A stretch of 33,585 bases of DNA from assembly GCA_028717345.1 (NCBI GenBank), contig JAQUNZ010000023.1:1-33585 (forward strand). The letters run 5' to 3'. This stretch comes from Candidatus Methanoperedens sp. (lineage in GTDB: Archaea; Halobacteriota; Methanosarcinia; Methanosarcinales; Methanoperedenaceae). A program made the position numbers and the translations under genes. Under the pieces are notes generated by a model. The model was not told the origin of the DNA and did no database searches. It worked only from the letters and a program-made list of their open reading frames with translations. Positions within the stretch are counted from its first letter, which is position 1, and each line of letters opens with the position of its first letter. This document shows positions 15,325 to 25,310 of the stretch, piece after piece.

Positions 15325-15396
15325 TGTTCATAAAGTTTATCATCTTTTAATCTATTCAAGTACTCTGGAGGTATGGCACTTCATCTATATAATACT

Positions 15397-18252
15397 ATGA
15401 AAGAAAGGTACAACCCGCATGAAATAGAGGAAAAGTGGCAGAGCAGATGGACAGAATCAAAGATTTTCCAGCCGGAACCTGACAGCAGGGAAAAATTCTT
15501 TATAACTATCCCTTACCCTTATCTTAATGGCAACCTTCACGCAGGGCATACCCGCACTTTCACCATCGGGGACGTAGTGGCGCGTTATAAAAGGATGCTG
15601 GGTTACAATGTTCTTTTCCCTATGGGTTTTCATGCCACGGGAACCCCGATCGTAGGGCTTGCAGAACAGATACATAAAAAAGACCCGGAAACGATCAGAG
15701 TATATAACAAACTTCATGAGATACCGCTTGAAGTCCTGGACACGATACAGACGCCAGAACAGATAGTTGAATATTTTAGCATACAGGCAGAAGCCGCCAT
15801 GAAAATAATTGGTTTCTCAATTGACTGGCGGCGCAGGTTCACTACTACTGACCCGCACTACAAGAAGTTCATCACATGGCAGTTCAATCTTCTCCACAGT
15901 ATGAATAAGGTCGTAAAAGGCTCACATCCTGTGAGGTGGTGCCCGAACGACGAGAACCCGGTTGAAGACCATGACATCTTACGGGGTGAAGACGCAACAA
16001 TAATCGATTACACGCTCATCAAGTTCAAGCTCAGTGATGATTTACTTCCCTGCGCAACTTTACGCCCTGAGACCGTATTTGGAGTCACGAACCTGTGGGT
16101 GAACCCGAAAATAGTTCATGTCAGGGTTAAAGTTAACGGCGAATCGTGGATAGTCAGCAGGGAAGCCTACGAGAAGCTTCGGTTCACTGATAAAAAAGTG
16201 GAGCTGATAGCTGAGGTGAAAGGCGATGAACTGATAGGGAAAAAAGTAACCAATCCTGTCACGAATTCTTCAGTGCTGATATTACCTGCATCTTTCGTGA
16301 GCCCTGATAACGGCAGCGGCATCGTCATGAGCGTTCCCGCACATGCGCCGTATGATCACCTTGCCCTTCGCGACCTGAAAGGCGCGGATCTTACAAAATA
16401 CGGCATCAACGAAGATGTTTCGTCCATACCCCTCATATCTCTTATTAAAGTCCCGGAATATGGGAAATATCCTGCCGTGGATGCAGTGAAAGAACTTAAA
16501 GTGAAAGACCAGAACGACCCGAAAGCCGAAGAAGCCACCAAGCTTGTGTACAGGCGGGAGTTCCATGGCGGCGTGCTCACTGAAACCACTGGAAAATATG
16601 CAGGCATGGCAGTGTCTAAAATAAAAGACGTTCTGACGCGCGACCTTATCGAGAAAGGGGTTGCTGACGTATTCTATGAATTCAGCGAGTCGCCTGTAGT
16701 GTGCAGGTGCGGTGCAACATGCGTTATAAAGATGGTTGAGAACCAGTGGTTCCTGAACTATTCCGAACCTTCCTGGAAAGAGCAGGTTTACACATGCCTT
16801 AAGAACATGAATATTATACCGCCTGAGATCAGAGTGGATTTTGAGAACAAGGTGGACTGGCTAAAAGACAAAGCCTGCGCACGGCGCAAAGGTCTTGGAA
16901 CAAGACTGCCGTGGGATACTGCATGGATGATTGAGTCGCTTGGCGATTCAACGATTTATATGAGTTATTATATTATTGCCAAATATCTGGATAAATTCAC
17001 TCCAGAACAATTAAAAGAAGAGTTCTTTAATTACTGTCTGATGGGAAAAGGAACGCCAGAGAGTGTTTCTGAAAAAACAGGCATCGGTGTTGATGTCATT
17101 AGAAGAATCAGGAGTGATTTTGAATACTGGTATCCGGTTGACCTTCGCACTTCAGGTAAAGACCTTATTCCCAACCACCTGTTGTTCTTCCTGTTCCACC
17201 ATGTTGCGATATTCCCTGAAATGTACTGGCCGCGTGCCATTGCTATCAACGGTTTTGTATCGCTTGAAGGGCAGAAGATGAGCAAGTCAAAAGGACCCAT
17301 TCTAACACTTCGATCTGCAGTAAAGGAATATGGCGCAGACGTCACGCGGCTATATATCCTGAGCTCTGCAGAGCATGTCCAGGACGCAGACTGGCGTAAA
17401 GCTGATGTGGAATCCACAAGTAAGCAGGTTGAAAGATTTTACAAGCTTGCATACGACATTATCAAATCAGAAGATACAGGCGAAATAAAACTCATAGATA
17501 AATGGATGCTGAGCAGATTACAGTACAGGATACGTGAAACTGCGGATGCGCTCAACAGGATGCAGACAAGAAGGGCTGTCCAGAACGCTTTCTACATGCT
17601 CATGAACGATATGAAATGGTATGAGCGCCGGGGTGGGAGAGCTGCCTGCAAGCAGATATTAAATACCTGGGTACGTTTGATGGCTCCTTTTACACCGCAT
17701 ATTTGCGAGGAAATAGGTGAAGAAATGGGAATTGACATGGTATCTCTGGCAAGGTTCCCGGTGGCTGACGCTGCGCTTACGGATAAGGGGGCAGAACTCT
17801 CTGAAGAAATAATAGCAAATACACTGCGGGACATGGAAGAAATAATCAGGCTCATCAGGATAAAGCCCAAAAGGATCGTATTATATACCTCTGCGGAATG
17901 GAAAAAACAGGTACTTAAAAAAGCCATCGCAATGAAAAAAGACAATGCACTTGACATGAAAACGCTCATGAACACCCTTATGGGCGATCCAGCCATGCGC
18001 ACGTATGGAAAGGATATCCCGAAATTCGCGCAGAAGATCATAACAGATATCCAGGGGATGGAACCTGACCTCATGGATGCCCTGCTTGATGTTGATTTTG
18101 ATGAAGTTTCAGCATTGAACGAAGCTCGTGAATTCATAAGTGGGGTTGTGGAATGCAATATTGAAATATATAGTGCTGACGCTCCAGGATATGATCCGCA
18201 GAATAAAAGCCGTTTTGCATCTCCAATGAGACCTGCTATTTACATTGAATAA
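15397..18252 (+). CDS. leuS: Leucyl-tRNA synthetase, archaeal type
   Basis: LeuS charges tRNA-Leu with leucine. From ATG 15397 it has 951 residues. The class I signatures are HAGH (48-51, in NGNLHAGHTRTF) and KMSKS (627-631). The CP1 editing domain is in place, with TLRPETVFGVTNLWVNP and GSGIVMSVPAHAPYDH, the latter holding the editing-pocket Asp. The archaeal/eukaryotic form is shown by the zinc-like CRCGATCVIKM and the long C-terminal tail. ATG 15373 is eight codons upstream but touches a GGAGGT with no spacer; RYNPHEIEEKW right after 15397 is the usual family start, so I chose 15397 without being certain. Confidence 0.95.
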   Translation: MKERYNPHEIEEKWQSRWTESKIFQPEPDSREKFFITIPYPYLNGNLHAGHTRTFTIGDVVARYKRMLGYNVLFPMGFHATGTPIVGLAEQIHKKDPETIRVYNKLHEIPLEVLDTIQTPEQIVEYFSIQAEAAMKIIGFSIDWRRRFTTTDPHYKKFITWQFNLLHSMNKVVKGSHPVRWCPNDENPVEDHDILRGEDATIIDYTLIKFKLSDDLLPCATLRPETVFGVTNLWVNPKIVHVRVKVNGESWIVSREAYEKLRFTDKKVELIAEVKGDELIGKKVTNPVTNSSVLILPASFVSPDNGSGIVMSVPAHAPYDHLALRDLKGADLTKYGINEDVSSIPLISLIKVPEYGKYPAVDAVKELKVKDQNDPKAEEATKLVYRREFHGGVLTETTGKYAGMAVSKIKDVLTRDLIEKGVADVFYEFSESPVVCRCGATCVIKMVENQWFLNYSEPSWKEQVYTCLKNMNIIPPEIRVDFENKVDWLKDKACARRKGLGTRLPWDTAWMIESLGDSTIYMSYYIIAKYLDKFTPEQLKEEFFNYCLMGKGTPESVSEKTGIGVDVIRRIRSDFEYWYPVDLRTSGKDLIPNHLLFFLFHHVAIFPEMYWPRAIAINGFVSLEGQKMSKSKGPILTLRSAVKEYGADVTRLYILSSAEHVQDADWRKADVESTSKQVERFYKLAYDIIKSEDTGEIKLIDKWMLSRLQYRIRETADALNRMQTRRAVQNAFYMLMNDMKWYERRGGRAACKQILNTWVRLMAPFTPHICEEIGEEMGIDMVSLARFPVADAALTDKGAELSEEIIANTLRDMEEIIRLIRIKPKRIVLYTSAEWKKQVLKKAIAMKKDNALDMKTLMNTLMGDPAMRTYGKDIPKFAQKIITDIQGMEPDLMDALLDVDFDEVSALNEAREFISGVVECNIEIYSADAPGYDPQNKSRFASPMRPAIYIE

Positions 18253-18289: not shown

Positions 18290-18655
18290 ATGAACACATC
18301 CAGGTTGCTTGAAAAAATATTGGACGATCTAAAACTTCCGGGTGGTATAGATGCCTCAATAGTGGCAAGCAGAGATGGTTTACTTATATATTCAAATACA
18401 GTTTTAAAGGAACATGCGCAAACCTTTGCAGCCATGTCGGCTACAATGCTGGGGGCTGCGGAAACTGCAACATTAGAACTCAGAAAAGGTATTCCAGAGA
18501 GAATAATAGTGGAATCGGTTAACGGGAAGATAATCGCGACCGGCGCAGGACCAAAAGCTCTGCTTGTAGTTTTGACCGAGCCCAATGCAAGTCTCGGGTT
18601 AATCCTTATCGAAGTGGCTAAAGCGTCAGAAAAGATTAGAGAAGTATTGGGGTAA
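18290..18655 (+). CDS. Roadblock/LC7 domain protein (MglB-like)
   Basis: This 121-residue protein has the roadblock/LC7 layout: helix (SRLLEKILDDLKL), strand pair with GIDASIVASRDGLLIYSN, a long helix (AQTFAAMSATMLGAAETA), then the strands ERIIVESVNGKIIATGAG and ALLVVLTEPNASLGLILIE, and a last helix. Such proteins dimerise and often act on small GTPases (MglB on MglA) or sit next to signalling ATPases. No Ras-like GTPase gene lies in this window. It begins 37 bases after leuS and ends three bases before the KaiC-like gene, so it heads a seven-gene run. Confidence 0.88.
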   Translation: MNTSRLLEKILDDLKLPGGIDASIVASRDGLLIYSNTVLKEHAQTFAAMSATMLGAAETATLELRKGIPERIIVESVNGKIIATGAGPKALLVVLTEPNASLGLILIEVAKASEKIREVLG

Positions 18656-18658
18656 TGT

Positions 18659-20101
18659 ATGAAACATGTGGTAACCGGAGTAAACGGGCTTGATGATGTA
18701 TTAGAGGGAGGTTTTTTAAGACCTTCTATCGTATTAATTGGGGGTGCGGCAGGTACAGGGAAGACCACAATGGCATTGCAATCCCTTTTTAATGCAGCAA
18801 AAAATGATGAAAACTGCATGTATGTCACGACCCTTACCGAGCCGATAGCTACGATCAACAATTTCATGTCCAGATTCTCTTTCTACAATGCCTCACTGCT
18901 GGAAAAAGGTAATATTAAATATCTCCCTCTTGATATTGAGATCATCCATGATAGCACAAATGCTATCATAAACGAAATGGAAAAAAACATTGATGTGATA
19001 AAACCTGACAGGATAGTTATCGACCCTGTTAACGTGTTGGCTATGGGGTCTGATGAAGAAGAGATGAGAAAATTCTTTTATGATCTCTTCATGAGTATGA
19101 AAGCATGGAACTCTCTAGTTCTGGTAACAGGTGAATTTACCTATGAATCGCTTATTCGAAGCTCTTTGAGCTATCTTGTGGATGGTGTAATCTATCTCAG
19201 TAACGAACCGTTCCATGAGCGAAATATCAGGTATCTCAGTGTGCTGAAGATGAGGGGACAGGATTTTTCAGGCGGAAAACATTCCTGCAAACTAACTCAA
19301 GACGGGTTTACAGTATACCCAAGAAAAATACCTGAAACAAGGACATCTATTCAGAAAGAACGCATTTCAACAGGAATAAAAGGGCTGGACAAGATGACAG
19401 ATGGAGGTTTCATGCGTGGCACATCTATCCTGCTCTCTGGTTCAAGCGGGACCGGTAAGACAGTGATAGGGACACAGTTCATTGTAAACAGTCTGCTAAA
19501 AAATGAGCCCGGAATTATAGTTTCATTTGAAGAAGATGCGGTACAGATACGGGAAAATTCAAGGAAGTTCGGATGGGGTCTGGAAGATTTTGAGAACAGG
19601 AATCTACTTAAAATAATATCACCCATTGAATTTGATACCAGCGAACTTGCACTCCAGATATATCATACAGCTGAAAAAATAAAAGCAAGATGCATTATGT
19701 TCGATGGAATTGCCAGACTTCAAAGTTTGATGCCCCCGCATATCCAATTCTCAGATTACATGGAAGGATTTGTCAGCACCTTGAAAAAAATGAATGTTAC
19801 CGCAGTTTATACGAATGAGACGCAGAACCTGACAGGAACTACAAAGGTCACAGGTACGGGTATCTCCCCTGCGATGGACACTGTAATCCTGCTAAGATAT
19901 CTGGAAATAAAAAGTGAAATGCGAAAAGCCATTTCTGTGCTAAAGATGCGTGGAAGCGATCATGACAAGGATATAAGGGAACTTATTATCAATAAAAAGG
20001 GTGTTGAGATAAAAATGCCGTTCAGTGAATATTCCGGGTTGTTATCAGGAAGTCCGGTAAAAGCACCGTCTGATGCTTTCATAGAAGCCTTTAGAAAATG
20101 A
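18659..20101 (+). CDS. KaiC-like two-domain RecA-fold ATPase
   Basis: The 480 residues hold two KaiC/RadA-type domains. Walker A motifs are GGAAGTGKT (28-36) and GSSGTGKT (261-268), and Walker B strands are DRIVIDPVN and CIMFDGIAR. In domain 2 the paired catalytic glutamates are kept as SFEED (E291, E292). In domain 1 they are replaced by TTLTEP (single E61, shifted one place). Compared with the cyanobacterial clock KaiC as I remember it, the Ser phospho-site is kept as S403 in GISPAMDT but the next Thr is Pro. It is therefore a KaiC-family switch, not a clock KaiC. No KaiA or KaiB is present. It overlaps the next gene by four bases. Confidence 0.93.
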   Translation: MKHVVTGVNGLDDVLEGGFLRPSIVLIGGAAGTGKTTMALQSLFNAAKNDENCMYVTTLTEPIATINNFMSRFSFYNASLLEKGNIKYLPLDIEIIHDSTNAIINEMEKNIDVIKPDRIVIDPVNVLAMGSDEEEMRKFFYDLFMSMKAWNSLVLVTGEFTYESLIRSSLSYLVDGVIYLSNEPFHERNIRYLSVLKMRGQDFSGGKHSCKLTQDGFTVYPRKIPETRTSIQKERISTGIKGLDKMTDGGFMRGTSILLSGSSGTGKTVIGTQFIVNSLLKNEPGIIVSFEEDAVQIRENSRKFGWGLEDFENRNLLKIISPIEFDTSELALQIYHTAEKIKARCIMFDGIARLQSLMPPHIQFSDYMEGFVSTLKKMNVTAVYTNETQNLTGTTKVTGTGISPAMDTVILLRYLEIKSEMRKAISVLKMRGSDHDKDIRELIINKKGVEIKMPFSEYSGLLSGSPVKAPSDAFIEAFRK

Positions 20102-20391
20102 CAGATATCATGGATTTAATATTGCTCCAGAAGATATTTAATATATATTCGTGGCTGGCAGCATGTATTATCATGGTTTTTATGGCTGCAATAGCACTAT
20201 TTTATCAAAAGAAATTCGGTAACCGGACGTTTTTTTATTTTTATATAATTCCAATAATTGTTCTTGTTATACCAGCGATACAGTTATTTCCCTTTTTTAC
20301 GTTTCAGGCAGAATTTATAGAATTCCTGGGGTCATTTATCTCTTTTCTGGCAAGTTATTTCCTGTATAGAAAGATGGTGGGTGTGAAATGA
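20098..20391 (+). CDS. Small 3-TM membrane protein (signalling operon, first)
   Basis: This 97-residue protein has three hydrophobic segments, about 18-37, 45-64 and 70-90, with short basic loops (QKKFGNR, YRKMVGVK). I do not recognise a family. It overlaps the KaiC-like gene by ATGA at its start and the next small membrane gene by ATGA at its end, so all three are translated together. It is similar in size and layout to that next protein, and the two may form a membrane complex with the sensor kinase or anchor the KaiC protein; that is inference. Confidence 0.75.
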   Translation: MTDIMDLILLQKIFNIYSWLAACIIMVFMAAIALFYQKKFGNRTFFYFYIIPIIVLVIPAIQLFPFFTFQAEFIEFLGSFISFLASYFLYRKMVGVK

Positions 20392-20684
20392 ATTTTGAAG
20401 TAATTGATACGGTCTCTTTTTTATTGTTTACATGCATACTTTATTTTTTAAGTGTTTTCAGTAAAAGGTTTGGGGATGTGATGGGTATGAAAAAATATTA
20501 CTATCTTTATTATGCAGGTATATTTTTCACATTTTCAGGTTCTGTCATAATGAGCCTGTCTGTGCCTGTTCTTGAACCTCAGGAATTGTTCGGGTATGTC
20601 TTCTTTTCAATTGGATTGACTCTTGGTCTTATAGCGTCGATAAAATATTGGGGATGGTTAATAAAAGAAATCATTAAGGGATAA
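20388..20684 (+). CDS. Small 3-TM membrane protein (signalling operon, second)
   Basis: This 98-residue protein has three hydrophobic segments, about 9-25, 38-58 and 66-88. A basic loop (SKRFGDVMGMKKYYYLYY) separates the first two, and PVLEPQELFGY lies between the last two. I do not recognise a family. The size, segment count and loop placement mirror the protein encoded just before it, so they may be distant tandem duplicates. It ends five bases before the binding-lipoprotein gene. Confidence 0.75.
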   Translation: MNFEVIDTVSFLLFTCILYFLSVFSKRFGDVMGMKKYYYLYYAGIFFTFSGSVIMSLSVPVLEPQELFGYVFFSIGLTLGLIASIKYWGWLIKEIIKG

Positions 20685-20689
20685 ACTCT

Positions 20690-21601
20690 ATGAAAACCAT
20701 TCTCTTAATTATTTTAACCAGTGCAATTATATCTTCAGGTTGTATTGAGAAAACGGAAATGCTAAACCTGAGCATAGTGAAGGAACCCGATATCAGGGGA
20801 AATGATACTGCTATTAAGGTCGCTATCTCCTCGGTGATATCTCCAAAAGAATCCATAAATTATTATGAAGGATTGATACAATACATTTCATCCAAACTTG
20901 GCAGACCGATAAAGATCATCCATAGACGCACATACCAGGAAATAAATGACATGGTAAAGAAGGGGGAGATCGATTTTGCTTTTGTCTGCAGTGGACCCTA
21001 TGTCGAAGGAAATGATGAATTTGGTATGAAACTTCTCGTGGTTCCAGAGTCATATGGAAAAAACACATATTATTCTTACATCATTGTCCCCCGGAACAGC
21101 AATTATACAAATCTATCCGACCTTCGGGGCAAAAGGTTTGCGTTCACTGACCCGTTATCTAATACAGGATGGTTGTATCCTGCATACAGGCTTTCTCTTA
21201 TCAATGAAACACCCGAATCGTTTTTTGGAGCGGATGAAAAATTCAGGAATAACTTTTTTTACACATACAGCCACGACAATTCCATCATTGCAGTGGCGGA
21301 AGGGGTGGCAGAAGGAGCAGCCGTCAACAGCAGGGTATATGAATATATGAAGTTTGAAAAACCCGATATCATACAGCAAACAAGAATAATCGAAGTTTCA
21401 CAGCCTTTTGCCAATCCTCCTGTGGTGGTATCAGGTGATGTAGATCCGTTATTTGAGCAAAGACTTAAAGATATTTTCCTGAATATGGATAAGGATGAAG
21501 AGGGAAAAAAGATACTCTCAAGGATCATGATAGACAGATTTGTAACTCTGAATGACAGCAATTATGACCCCATCCGTGAAATGAGGAATAGCATAAAATG
21601 A
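20690..21601 (+). CDS. PhnD-like periplasmic-type binding lipoprotein
   Basis: The 303-residue protein has a lipoprotein signal with lipobox ISSGC (Cys18) and then a type-II solute-binding fold of the PhnD/phosphonate class. Marks are KVAISSVISPKESINYYEGLI, IIHRRTYQEINDMVKKGEIDFAFVCSGPY, YSYIIVPRNSNYTNLSDLRGKRFAF and DPLSNTGWLYPAYRL. PhnD proteins usually feed an ABC importer, but no permease or ATPase gene is here. Its stop overlaps the start of the histidine kinase gene (ATGA). This pairing is known from other sensor systems where the binding protein presents a ligand to the kinase, so a co-sensor role is likely. The ligand cannot be read from the sequence. Confidence 0.88.
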   Translation: MKTILLIILTSAIISSGCIEKTEMLNLSIVKEPDIRGNDTAIKVAISSVISPKESINYYEGLIQYISSKLGRPIKIIHRRTYQEINDMVKKGEIDFAFVCSGPYVEGNDEFGMKLLVVPESYGKNTYYSYIIVPRNSNYTNLSDLRGKRFAFTDPLSNTGWLYPAYRLSLINETPESFFGADEKFRNNFFYTYSHDNSIIAVAEGVAEGAAVNSRVYEYMKFEKPDIIQQTRIIEVSQPFANPPVVVSGDVDPLFEQRLKDIFLNMDKDEEGKKILSRIMIDRFVTLNDSNYDPIREMRNSIK

Positions 21602-24276
21602 AAAGCCTGAGATTCAAGATAATTATATCCACAATGCTGATAGGATTATTTGTGATCCTGGGTTCATTTCTTGTTATTCAGGATATACAGAAAGGGATAA
21701 TTGAAGGGGAGTTTCGCGACAAGGGAATATTAGTGGCGGATCATTTGAGATTGGAACTCACAGACCCGGTGCTTGTAAATGATCTGATGGAAATAAAGAA
21801 CTACATTGAAAACCTGAAAAAAGGTTACTCTGATATAGAATATATTTTTGTGACAGATTCAGATGGGGTGGTGCTTGCGCATACCTTTGAGAATGGTTTT
21901 CCAAAAGCGCTTCAAAATATGAGCAAGCCTTCGAACGTTCAGGACGAATTCATATATTATTCTGATAGGGGGGTCATCCATGAATTCGATAGACCGCTTT
22001 TGAACAATATCGGCTATGTCCATTTAGGTTTATCTGAAACACGGGTCAGGACGCATATACAGGAGTCCTCAGACAGGCTGCTGTTGCTTTCGATATCGGC
22101 ATTCGTTCTATTGGGGATATTTATTTTCTTCACAGGAAGATGGCTTACCGAACCTGTGCTCAGGCTTACCGAAGGAGCAAAAAGAATCAATAAGGGCATA
22201 CTTGACCAGAAAATAGAGGTTGCATCAAAAGATGAACTTGGGGAGCTTGCTGCGACATTCAATGACATGTCAAAAACCCTTGATGAGAAAATTAAGGATC
22301 TTGTGACCTCAAAAGAACAGACCGAAACTGCACAAAAGTACCTTGAGACCCTGTTTAACAGCATCGACGATGGCATTATTGTTGTGAATATCAATCATGA
22401 AATCATTAAAGTCAATGAATCGCTGCTTAAAATGATGCGCCTGAGTGAGGAACAATTACTGGGTAAAAGCTGCCACGAGATGATCTTTAGCATCCAGCGC
22501 CCTCATGATAAAGAGGGATGTCCCGTCGGTATAATGCTTCGCACAAAAGAGCCCATGAGGCTTTTGCGTGAAGTACAGGTCAACGGCGATAAAAAAATCC
22601 TGGAAATAAACGGAACTTTGCTCTCAGACAGCAGGGGTGAAATCAACGTAATTTTAGTGCTGAGGGATGTAACAAAACAAAAAGCGCTTGAAGAAGAGAT
22701 AATTGCCAGGAACAGGGAACTGACTACGCTTAACGAAATATCAAAAAATGTCAGCGAGAGCTTTGAACTGGATAAAATATTGTCAAATACCCTGAATAGT
22801 CTGCTAAAACTTACAAAGATGGATTGGGGTGAAATATACCTGCTTGATGAAGGATCAGGGAACTTTGTCCTTGATATCCATGCAGGAAATGATGTTGCTC
22901 CCCCAAAAGTTCTTCCCTCCAATATTAACGTAAGAGATGTACTGGCGATCAATGATCCAGGAAAAAATCCATGGATCAGAGCTGATGGGGGTTCAAATGT
23001 TGATTCATCTTTCGTTGGAATTCCCCTTAAATTGAAAGATAAGGTTTTCGGGGTGATAACGCTTCGAAGCAGCAAGCAGTATAATTTTTCTGATAAAGAT
23101 AAGGACATTTTCACAGCGGTCGGCAATCAGCTCGGTGTTGCCATAGAGAACATCACATTTTATAACAACATCAAGTACCTGAAGGAATTCAATGAAGAGA
23201 TCCTGAATAATGTCAATCTTGCTATCCATGTTGTTGATAAGGACCTGAAAATCCTAGCTGTGAACGATGAATTGATAAAACTTAGCAAGGGCAGGTACAA
23301 AAAAGAAGATATGATAGACAGGGCTCTTTTTGAGATATATCCCTTCCTGAAAGAAAAAAATGTCGATAAAGAATATGAATACGTTAAAAAGACCGGTGAG
23401 ATATTCCAGAGTGAGGAAAAGATAGAATATTACGGGGATGTTGTTTATACTAGCACGAGCAAGATACCGGTCAGGGACCATACAGGGAGTGTCGTCAGGA
23501 TAATTACGGTAATGAAGGATGTAACCGAACAGAAAAGACTCGAAGAGGAATTGAAAGATTCGTATGAGGAGCTCAGATTGACGTATCTGAAGCTAAAGGA
23601 GCTTTTCAAGGTAAAAGAGAACTTCATCTCGAATATGTCGCATGAATTGAGGACGCCGCTTACCTCTATTATGGGGTATACCGAGCTTTTGCTTGATGAA
23701 AATATCCCTTCAGAACAGAAACACAAACTTGAAGTGATATATAGGAATTCTCAACGATTGTCAAGACTAATTCAAGGGCTGCTCGATACTGCAGTCATTG
23801 AATCAAAGAACCTTACGCTAAATATACAGACATTGTCGCTTTATGAGATGATGCAACATATCTCAGAGGATATGAAAGCGGTGACTCAAATAAAAAATAT
23901 TCCTGTGATATTAGATATCCCTGAGCAACTCAAGGTTGAGGGGGACAGGGAAAAATTGATGCAGTTATTCTCAAATATGCTGGACAATGCCATTAAATTT
24001 ACCCTGAAAGGTAAGATTAAAATTACAGCAAGTGAGGATAATGAGTGGGTCCATATTAAATTTGAAGATACGGGTATTGGCATACCGCAGGATAAGCTTG
24101 ATATAATCTTTGACAGGTTCTACCAGCTTGATTCTCCTGAAACACCGAACAGGGGAGGAGCAGGACTGGGTCTATGGATATCAAAAAACATAGTGGAGGC
24201 ACATGGTGGTAAGATATGGGCGGAAAGTAAAAATAGGGGAAGCACATTTCATGTTTTGCTGAAAAAGGAGAACTAA
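21598..24276 (+). CDS. Membrane multi-sensor histidine kinase (HAMP-PAS-GAF-PAS-HisKA-HATPase)
   Basis: The 892 residues run as follows: TM1 (about 8-27), an extracellular sensor of about 130 residues with YIFVTDSDGVVLAHTF as in Cache domains, TM2 (about 161-179), HAMP (180-235), a PAS domain (about 250-365) with two cysteines in SCHEMIF and EGCPVG, a GAF domain (about 375-530), a second PAS (about 535-650), then HisKA with phospho-acceptor H682 in SHELRTPL, and HATPase with N-box DNAIKFT, G1 DTGIGIP and G2 GGAGLGLW. All kinase boxes are intact. It is coupled to the binding lipoprotein upstream (ATGA) and the receiver downstream (TAATG). Confidence 0.95.
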   Translation: MKSLRFKIIISTMLIGLFVILGSFLVIQDIQKGIIEGEFRDKGILVADHLRLELTDPVLVNDLMEIKNYIENLKKGYSDIEYIFVTDSDGVVLAHTFENGFPKALQNMSKPSNVQDEFIYYSDRGVIHEFDRPLLNNIGYVHLGLSETRVRTHIQESSDRLLLLSISAFVLLGIFIFFTGRWLTEPVLRLTEGAKRINKGILDQKIEVASKDELGELAATFNDMSKTLDEKIKDLVTSKEQTETAQKYLETLFNSIDDGIIVVNINHEIIKVNESLLKMMRLSEEQLLGKSCHEMIFSIQRPHDKEGCPVGIMLRTKEPMRLLREVQVNGDKKILEINGTLLSDSRGEINVILVLRDVTKQKALEEEIIARNRELTTLNEISKNVSESFELDKILSNTLNSLLKLTKMDWGEIYLLDEGSGNFVLDIHAGNDVAPPKVLPSNINVRDVLAINDPGKNPWIRADGGSNVDSSFVGIPLKLKDKVFGVITLRSSKQYNFSDKDKDIFTAVGNQLGVAIENITFYNNIKYLKEFNEEILNNVNLAIHVVDKDLKILAVNDELIKLSKGRYKKEDMIDRALFEIYPFLKEKNVDKEYEYVKKTGEIFQSEEKIEYYGDVVYTSTSKIPVRDHTGSVVRIITVMKDVTEQKRLEEELKDSYEELRLTYLKLKELFKVKENFISNMSHELRTPLTSIMGYTELLLDENIPSEQKHKLEVIYRNSQRLSRLIQGLLDTAVIESKNLTLNIQTLSLYEMMQHISEDMKAVTQIKNIPVILDIPEQLKVEGDREKLMQLFSNMLDNAIKFTLKGKIKITASEDNEWVHIKFEDTGIGIPQDKLDIIFDRFYQLDSPETPNRGGAGLGLWISKNIVEAHGGKIWAESKNRGSTFHVLLKKEN

Positions 24277-24659
24277 TGGAAAAAAATGCTTCGAATAAAA
24301 CGGTTCTTATAGTTGATGATGAACCCGACACACTTGAACTTGTTAAACTTGTACTTGAGAGTGTAGGATTTAAAACTGTTTCGGCTGCAAGTGGAATAGA
24401 AGCATTGAGACAGGTGGATGTTTCAAAACCAGACCTCGTACTGCTTGATATAATGATGCCTGATATGGATGGCTGGGAGGTTTTCAGGAAAATCAAAGAG
24501 AAATATTCAACATTGCCCATTGCAATTTTGACGGCTAAAGCGCAGAACTTTGACCGGTTGCTTGGTCTGCATGTTTTAAAGGCTGATGATTATATTATAA
24601 AACCTTTTGGGAAGAATGAATTAATAAGCAAGGTAAGAAAATTATCGGGTCTTACATAG
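24276..24659 (+). CDS. Receiver-only response regulator
   Basis: This 127-residue protein is a single REC domain without an output domain. The acid pocket is D14-D15, the phospho-acceptor is D58 in LVLLDIMMPDMDG, and the signalling residues are T in AILTAK and K in YIIKPFG. It should accept phosphate from H682 of the kinase that overlaps it by one base. Without a DNA-binding domain, the signal must pass by protein contact; the KaiC-like ATPase or roadblock protein of the same run are candidate partners. That step is inference. Confidence 0.95.
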   Translation: MEKNASNKTVLIVDDEPDTLELVKLVLESVGFKTVSAASGIEALRQVDVSKPDLVLLDIMMPDMDGWEVFRKIKEKYSTLPIAILTAKAQNFDRLLGLHVLKADDYIIKPFGKNELISKVRKLSGLT

Positions 24660-24671: not shown

Positions 24672-24710
24672 AAAAATTAAATAATCAATACAGTAACAAT
24701 GGTGAAAATT

Positions 24711-25310
24711 ATGGCGGAATCAAAATTTGTAATCCCATTCTATACACAGGAACGATGGCAAAACTGGATAAATAAAGTCAAAGAAAGCGATTTCAAGATC
24801 GATGACCAGGAGAAAGGGGCGGTTTTTGTATATATGGAAGATGACGTGGTGCTTGCCTGTCTTAAGATAATTGCGAAATATGATAAGAACACCATATCAA
24901 AAGATGATGCTCTGGGTCATATTTCTGGAATAAAGGAGATAGTCCTTACAAAGATCGAACCCATAAATGAAGATGTTGATATTATGCTGGAATCAACCCA
25001 GCTTTCACTGATGGGTGTTTTTGCTTCGTGCGAATGCTATATTGAGAAGGCATTTGAAAAGACGGGTTCATTTGGCAAATTAATAAAGGGTGCCCTGACG
25101 GCAGAAAAAGAAGATAATATGGGAGCTGCAATGGGAAATATTGCAGAGATCGGCGCTAATATCCTTTCAGGCAAGAAGTTGAAGGAAAAAGATATTGAGG
25201 ATCTTCCGGAAGGACTTGTCGCAGAATGGCTTGACGGGATAGATTCAATAAGCGCAGCCATGGTGGGCGACACAAGTTATAAAGATGATGAACCTGATGA
25301 AGGGAATTGA
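24711..25310 (+). CDS. DUF2150-like archaeal conserved protein
   Basis: The protein has 199 residues from ATG 24711, which has GGTGA five bases upstream; an ATG at 24699 lies over that site and is less likely. The N-terminus FVIPFYTQERWQNWINKVKES and the following helices resemble an archaeal family I recall as DUF2150, of unknown function. The middle (about 85-150) is helical with ASCECYIEKAFEKTG, and the end is acidic (YKDDEPDEGN). It is soluble. The next gene, a methyltransferase, overlaps its 3' end by 14 bases, so the two are probably linked in translation. Confidence 0.72.
   Translation: MAESKFVIPFYTQERWQNWINKVKESDFKIDDQEKGAVFVYMEDDVVLACLKIIAKYDKNTISKDDALGHISGIKEIVLTKIEPINEDVDIMLESTQLSLMGVFASCECYIEKAFEKTGSFGKLIKGALTAEKEDNMGAAMGNIAEIGANILSGKKLKEKDIEDLPEGLVAEWLDGIDSISAAMVGDTSYKDDEPDEGN

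Follow-up and report, generated by a model that had tools for sequence, protein, structure and literature searches.

A candidate membrane-associated KaiC signalling module with an ArrX/AioX-type sensor in Candidatus Methanoperedens

Introduction

How do archaea wire signals from outside the cell into their own KaiC switches? A role as signal transduction hubs has been put forward for archaeal KaiC-like proteins (Makarova et al. 2017, as cited in PMC5847659), and the inputs and cellular location of such hubs are largely unknown so far. Here, we analysed a stretch of 33,585 nucleotides (the window) from Candidatus Methanoperedens sp. (assembly GCA_028717345.1, contig JAQUNZ010000023.1), in which a run of seven genes suggests an answer. 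These genes encode a roadblock/LC7 protein (Robl), a KaiC-like ATPase (KaiC), two small membrane proteins (TM1 and TM2), a PhnD-fold lipoprotein (PhnD), a sensor histidine kinase (HK) and a receiver-only regulator (REC), and supply candidates for every link of a chain from external sensor through kinase and receiver to KaiC, with its membrane pair and roadblock. We consider it somewhat better than an even bet (a probability of roughly 0.55) that the locus encodes a KaiC signalling module that is associated with the membrane and takes its input from an oxyanion sensor of the ArrX/AioX type.

(Robl)-KaiC-TM1-TM2 is kept across families

TM1 and TM2 profiles were run against 186 genomes of the order. 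TM2 was detected in 62 of them; outside the order, a distant family of the phylum yielded a few more. KaiC was located immediately 5' of TM1-TM2 in 16/20 loci from three further families (L190 is an additional case), and Robl led KaiC-TM1-TM2 in two of those three families. In total, four families of the order have the core in this arrangement, and its chromosomal sites are unrelated. In one genome of family f5 (inferred to be Methanosarcinaceae), the core has an NadE gene on one side and a Nob1-like gene on the other, flanks indicating that the core order is not general synteny; a relative retains TM1-TM2 there without KaiC. Family f5 has Robl-KaiC-TM1-TM2 with no HK behind it, and family f3 has KaiC, TM1, TM2, HK and REC together. 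In the distant family, a single-domain KaiC precedes either TM1-TM2 or a TM2 with a REC of the window type (the REC is present in 2/3 loci). A second locus, present in the same genome as the window and in most relatives, reads KaiC-TM1-TM2-REC-HK. Judged by these neighbourhoods, (Robl)-KaiC-TM1-TM2 is a conserved core unit, with the kinase and REC as frequent partners.

Ordinary synteny of related genomes, without any functional link, might produce the same picture within one family: the leucyl-tRNA synthetase gene (LeuS) upstream and the DUF2150-methyltransferase-FtsJ genes downstream are also syntenic in Methanoperedenaceae. However, these flanks are not joined to the core elsewhere (DUF2150 is missing at the paralogous and other-family core loci), while the core has the same order in other families, with entirely different flanks, and at the second locus of the same genome. 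Synteny as the sole explanation is largely refuted, and we regard it as very improbable.

At one locus of the distant family (L187:4931-9095), KaiC-TM1-TM2 come after genes for a putative ATP-binding cassette (ABC) transporter, among them one for a substrate-binding protein; this set may provide a different type of ligand input.

The seven-gene run in Methanoperedenaceae

Neighbourhoods of relatives were retrieved and their genes labelled by comparison with the window proteins. The uninterrupted order Robl-KaiC-TM1-TM2-PhnD-HK-REC was present in 16 Methanoperedenaceae genomes besides the window; others are broken at contig ends. KaiC was 92% identical on a contig labelled Candidatus Methanoperedens, and the seven-gene order was retained where KaiC identity falls to 65-72%. 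This, together with the core order at unrelated sites elsewhere, indicates an order beyond chance. Conserved gene order, the main test put forward in a preliminary description of the locus, was thereby confirmed, for the full run in this family and for the core in others.

The PhnD lipoprotein resembles ArrX and AioX

The best PDB matches of PhnD were ArrX (E 3.6e-55) and then AioX (E 1e-35). The AioX pocket residues, including Y88, C106, Y131, S161, S163, H192 and D210 (PMC5908839), were mapped onto PhnD; ten pocket positions align with one constant numbering offset, which supports the mapping. The window pocket reads Y82, C100, Y127, S157, N158, T159, H195, N213 and P243, retaining the Y, C, Y, S, N, H and P of AioX. 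Most KaiC-linked PhnD relatives retain all seven of the AioX residues listed above. L098 is one relative with the full pocket. The KaiC-linked PhnD proteins form one clade in trees (97/95; 100), indicating that PhnD joined the KaiC run once. PhnD would be an ArrX/AioX-type sensor, for which an arsenate/phosphate-like oxyanion is a more likely ligand than phosphonate; phosphonate sensing, the default for PhnD, was set aside because of the ArrX/AioX kinship. The lipobox and PhnD fold agree with the external binding lipoprotein described before, but its kin are ArrX and AioX and it is an optional member of the run.

Eight relatives have a second PhnD-HK cassette. In most cases with context, a regulator bearing a helix-turn-helix (HTH) domain, an ArrA-like molybdoenzyme and iron-sulphur genes adjoin it, which is the arrXSR layout (arr-linked cassettes). 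The ArrA-like proteins beside these cassettes score under the NCBI ArrA cut-off. ArrA/ArxA-type reductases are known in Methanoperedenaceae (PMC7327174). At L163:3271-17863, an archaeal arrXSR-like arrangement has a tandem pair of PhnD-HK-regulator cassettes between two sets of ArrA-like molybdoenzyme and iron-sulphur genes. Separately, the PhnD proteins of L094, L100 and L191 carry four pocket changes (Tyr to Ser, Cys to Asn/Asp, His to Gln and Asp to Ser), which suggests another ligand or lost binding.

A kinase of probably composite origin

HK has an sCache-like external domain at about residues 28-160 and its HisKA phospho-site at H682. The sensor part (residues 1-175) resembles PhnD-adjacent kinases, scoring 72-85 bits against the HKs of arr-linked cassettes, and PhnD adjoins the relatives of this sensor outside the family locus in 16/20 sampled loci, including all the arr-linked ones. 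The HisKA-HATPase core has other affinities: every KaiC-linked kinase scored 158-199 bits, PhnD-linked kinases at most 151 and arr-linked kinases 65-84, and the core tree excluded the arr-linked cores at 100/100. The nearest HK core and the nearest REC in the same genome are those of the second KaiC locus. The simplest reading of these scores is that HK is a composite made by domain shuffling, with a PhnD-linked sensor on a core of the KaiC-linked kind. By the same comparisons, PhnD and the HK external domain are a sensory cassette that occurs across the order without the core and is joined to it only in Methanoperedenaceae.

The receiver and its likely partner

The residues required for phosphorylation are present in REC (D14, D58, T86 and K109), and the family has a common face, G-L-H-V...D-Y-I-K-P-F-G. 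REC scored 133-166 bits against receivers beside KaiC-TM loci vs. 40-53 against arr-linked regulators. The family was found in 110/186 genomes, namely 56/62 of those positive for TM2 vs. 54/124 of those lacking it, counts that ignore phylogeny. The idea that REC marks TM2 genomes exclusively was consequently rejected, and the association remains. In other lineages the REC family lies beside KaiC-TM1-TM2 or an iKaiC-REC fusion, so that a KaiC-type protein, here KaiC itself, is a plausible partner. KaiC-REC fusions have been published in Methanosarcinaceae (PMC5847659) and resemble the iKaiC-REC found beside PhnD-HK. At L206:1521-5996 and L211:3468-7923, PhnD-HK is divergent from an iKaiC-REC fusion and a window-family REC; the two genomes (both f5) carry Robl-KaiC-TM1-TM2 at another site. 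Among the indirect evidence that REC acts on a protein of the KaiC type, these fusions and neighbourhoods are the strongest.

The preliminary description had proposed a phosphorelay from kinase to receiver and on to the KaiC/roadblock pair, with a protein as the target of an output-less receiver. This proposal is supported in part: the phosphorylation residues of HK and REC are intact, REC is a receiver alone and its family lies beside KaiC; the step from REC to KaiC is plausible from gene context.

Signalling might also run the other way, with KaiC (plus Robl and the TM pair) controlling the kinase and REC serving as a free output to other targets. In cyanobacteria, KaiC acts on the kinases SasA and CikA, and a REC without an output domain could diffuse to any protein. 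Nevertheless, Pfam detected no KaiB-like SasA domain in HK, a kinase with an external sensor of its own, and no KaiB in the genome scored above the cut-off. Elsewhere, REC occurs next to KaiC-like proteins or fused with them, which favours the direction from REC to KaiC. We consider reversed signalling improbable.

KaiC, roadblock and the membrane pair

KaiC retains Walker A (K35 and K267), Walker B (D122 and D349) and the CII glutamates (E291/E292). Ser403, a conserved serine, stands at the cyanobacterial S431 position, and Pro404 at that of T432. Since Walker motifs, glutamates and serine are kept, autophosphorylation is possible, with Ser403 as the candidate site. A circadian-type oscillator could be imagined from the two domains, the intact Walker motifs and this serine. 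By contrast, the proline replaces T432, Pfam revealed no clock partner gene in the locus, and KaiC scored 230 bits against the circadian equivalog TIGR02655 (NCBIfam; cut-off 546). The best KaiB match in the genome (96% complete) reached 17.7 bits of the 27 required, and such sub-threshold KaiB matches were common in a control. As no KaiB exceeds the cut-off, a clock is scarcely credible.

Robl adjoins KaiC within the order, and probably is a dimeric platform or partner of KaiC. The same genome has four further Robl genes. One of them lies in an operon (C36, L009:203-2446) with genes for an inactive-looking KaiC/DUF7504 protein and a fusion of a KaiC-like domain with a Ras/Arf-like GTPase; it overlaps the fusion by 1 base, so that the Robl-KaiC pairing recurs.

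TM1 and TM2 were predicted as three-helix proteins (mean predicted local distance difference test, pLDDT, 88), as described previously. Foldseek searches of both models against the PDB gave no match below E 0.001, and their relatives matched no Pfam family. An assignment of TM1 to MASE3 was discarded (the match was below the Pfam cut-off, and three TM1 relatives that were tested gave no such match). The hhalign probability between TM1 and TM2, which bears on whether they are duplicates of each other, was 48%. That the two small membrane proteins go with KaiC was upheld, as the pair tracks KaiC in the core order across families. TM1 and TM2 are KaiC-linked families hitherto undescribed. We tentatively suggest, at somewhat less than even odds, that together they form, in archaea related to methanogens, a dedicated membrane receptor or anchor of the KaiC ring, a general socket for varied kinase-receiver front ends, here an ArrX-type oxyanion sensor. 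If true, an anion outside the cell could act on a KaiC switch across the membrane through a front end supplied by domain shuffling.

One pathway or two units

In the KaiC module that we favour, PhnD would bind an arsenate/phosphate-like oxyanion outside the cell and contact the sCache-like domain of HK. HK would autophosphorylate at H682 and hand the phosphate to D58 of REC. Phosphorylated REC would dock on the KaiC ring and then shift the ATPase or autophosphorylation state of KaiC (candidate site Ser403); TM1/TM2 would hold this ring at the membrane, and a Robl dimer would associate with it. The neighbourhood steps of this chain come from genome comparison; we infer the ligand, phosphotransfer, REC-KaiC contact, anchoring and output.

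Several observations weigh against this chain. PhnD alone is missing in six genomes (L073, L079, L080, L083, L090 and L096), and 4/6 of these still have the HK sensor domain. The kinase-lipoprotein link claimed earlier therefore holds in part: PhnD and the HK sensor domain have been passed on as a pair, but strict dependence was rejected (only G001 and G003 lack both). The window PhnD has Thr at the S163 position, Asn at D210 and Arg at Y212, departures that make its ligand unsure. The grouping of the HK core with the second KaiC locus is weak (81/59), and the REC family occurs in genomes without TM2 (the 54/124 above). Finally, at two loci (L097 and L098, genomes G016 and G032) Robl-KaiC-TM1-TM2 is gone and PhnD-HK-REC remains, which indicates that the halves are separable.

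The run may thus hold two independent units on one transcript, an ArrXSR-like sensor with a REC acting elsewhere and a Robl-KaiC-TM1-TM2 with its own input. Besides PhnD-HK-REC in G016 and G032, the core without HK in f5 and PhnD-HK without the core are consistent with this. However, the window REC and HK core are nearest to KaiC-linked, not arr-linked, proteins; the second locus and f3 likewise unite KaiC, TM1, TM2, HK and REC; and in both genomes without the core at this site, a KaiC of the second-locus type is present and could use the REC. Two units are unlikely, though a little less so than reversed signalling. The seven genes as one pathway, as originally described, stand insofar as HK and REC often join KaiC-TM; they are weakened by the separate occurrence of the four-gene core and of PhnD-HK-REC.

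Relation to known systems

The locus resembles AioXSR/ArrXSR (PMC5908839) in that ArrX is the PDB structure closest to its PhnD, most pocket residues are retained, the gene order is X-S-R, and the membrane kinase beside X has an external domain akin to that of relatives' ArrA-linked kinases. It differs in that REC has no DNA-binding output and is dissimilar to arr-linked regulators, an arsenic molybdoenzyme adjoins only the paralogous cassettes of relatives, the kinase core is nearest to KaiC-linked kinases, and the whole set is joined to Robl-KaiC-TM1-TM2. Like the archaeal KaiC hubs, it has a KaiC-family ATPase tied by conserved genome context to two-component proteins, as in the KaiC-REC fusions; unlike those fusions, it has separate genes and a two-domain ATPase with intact Walker motifs, and it adds the TM1/TM2 pair and a PhnD-type sensor. 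Cyanobacterial KaiC shares the tandem domains, Walker motifs, CII glutamates and serine, but not the proline, the want of a KaiB over the cut-off or the membrane partners. As in MglA/MglB-type GTPase-roadblock pairs, the roadblock gene adjoins a presumed nucleotide-binding partner; here this partner is KaiC, no GTPase is in the operon, and the KaiC-GTPase fusion with Robl lies elsewhere in the genome.

In the literature searched, which did not cover the 2017 KaiC paper, there was no description of a TM1/TM2 pair and PhnD-type sensor with an archaeal KaiC, and no mention of Methanoperedens and KaiC together. KaiC hubs and ArrX-type sensing are each known; what is new is their combination with an undescribed TM1/TM2 pair and a domain-shuffled ArrXS-like front end. 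At this locus, in methane-oxidising archaea of which some may respire arsenate, the receiver used with an ArrX-type sensor is no transcription factor. With conserved neighbours and mutable residues, the hub idea is testable with a handful of purified proteins.

Locus layout and minor observations

The seven tightly spaced genes reported at 18290-24659 were reproduced to the base (spacings from Robl to REC of +3, -4, -4, +5, -4 and -1 bases), and Pfam gave the protein families as named: roadblock, tandem KaiC, PhnD-type binder, multidomain kinase and receiver (Table 1). The limits of the run are not sharp, as LeuS ends 37 bases before Robl, DUF2150 begins 39 bases after REC, and overlapping methyltransferase and FtsJ/TRAM genes follow. 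Neither an arsenic molybdoenzyme nor a Ras-like GTPase was found among the seven genes and the two downstream.

Table 1. Genes of the KaiC-linked run and its immediate flanks (window coordinates)
Gene product	Position	Strand	Features
Leucyl-tRNA synthetase (LeuS), upstream syntenic flank	15373..18252	+	named from sequence and synteny
Roadblock/LC7 protein (Robl), 121 aa	18290..18655	+	Pfam Robl_LC7 E 3.4e-15
KaiC-like ATPase, two-domain, 480 aa	18659..20101	+	tandem KaiC domains, KaiC E 4e-91
TM1, 97 aa, three helices	20098..20391	+	signature I-A-x-F-Y-Q-x-x-F...T
TM2, 98 aa, three helices	20388..20684	+	signature L-S-x-R-x-G...Y-Y...K-Y-W-x-W-L
PhnD-fold lipoprotein, 303 aa	20690..21601	+	Pfam Phosphonate-bd E 2e-65, lipobox SSGC
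Sensor histidine kinase (HK), 892 aa	21598..24276	+	sCache-like front, HAMP-PAS-GAF-PAS-HisKA-HATPase
Receiver-only regulator (REC), 127 aa	24276..24659	+	Pfam receiver; signature G-L-H-V-x-x-x-D-Y-I-x-K-P-F-G
DUF2150 protein, syntenic family flank, outside the module	24699..25310	+	Pfam DUF2150 E 2.6e-67

A defence function was considered and dismissed, there being two matches only, both from the KaiC P-loop region. Among the relatives' loci, L079 and L080 have an HK shortened to 368-374 aa, with the membrane and sensor part gone. At L075:3424-4693, PhnD and HK are in fragments, reflecting decay or assembly error. In the closest relative, the absence of PhnD is clean (L073:9832-9836, with 5 bases from the end of TM2 to the start of HK), and its HK retains a sensor domain that is 81% identical.

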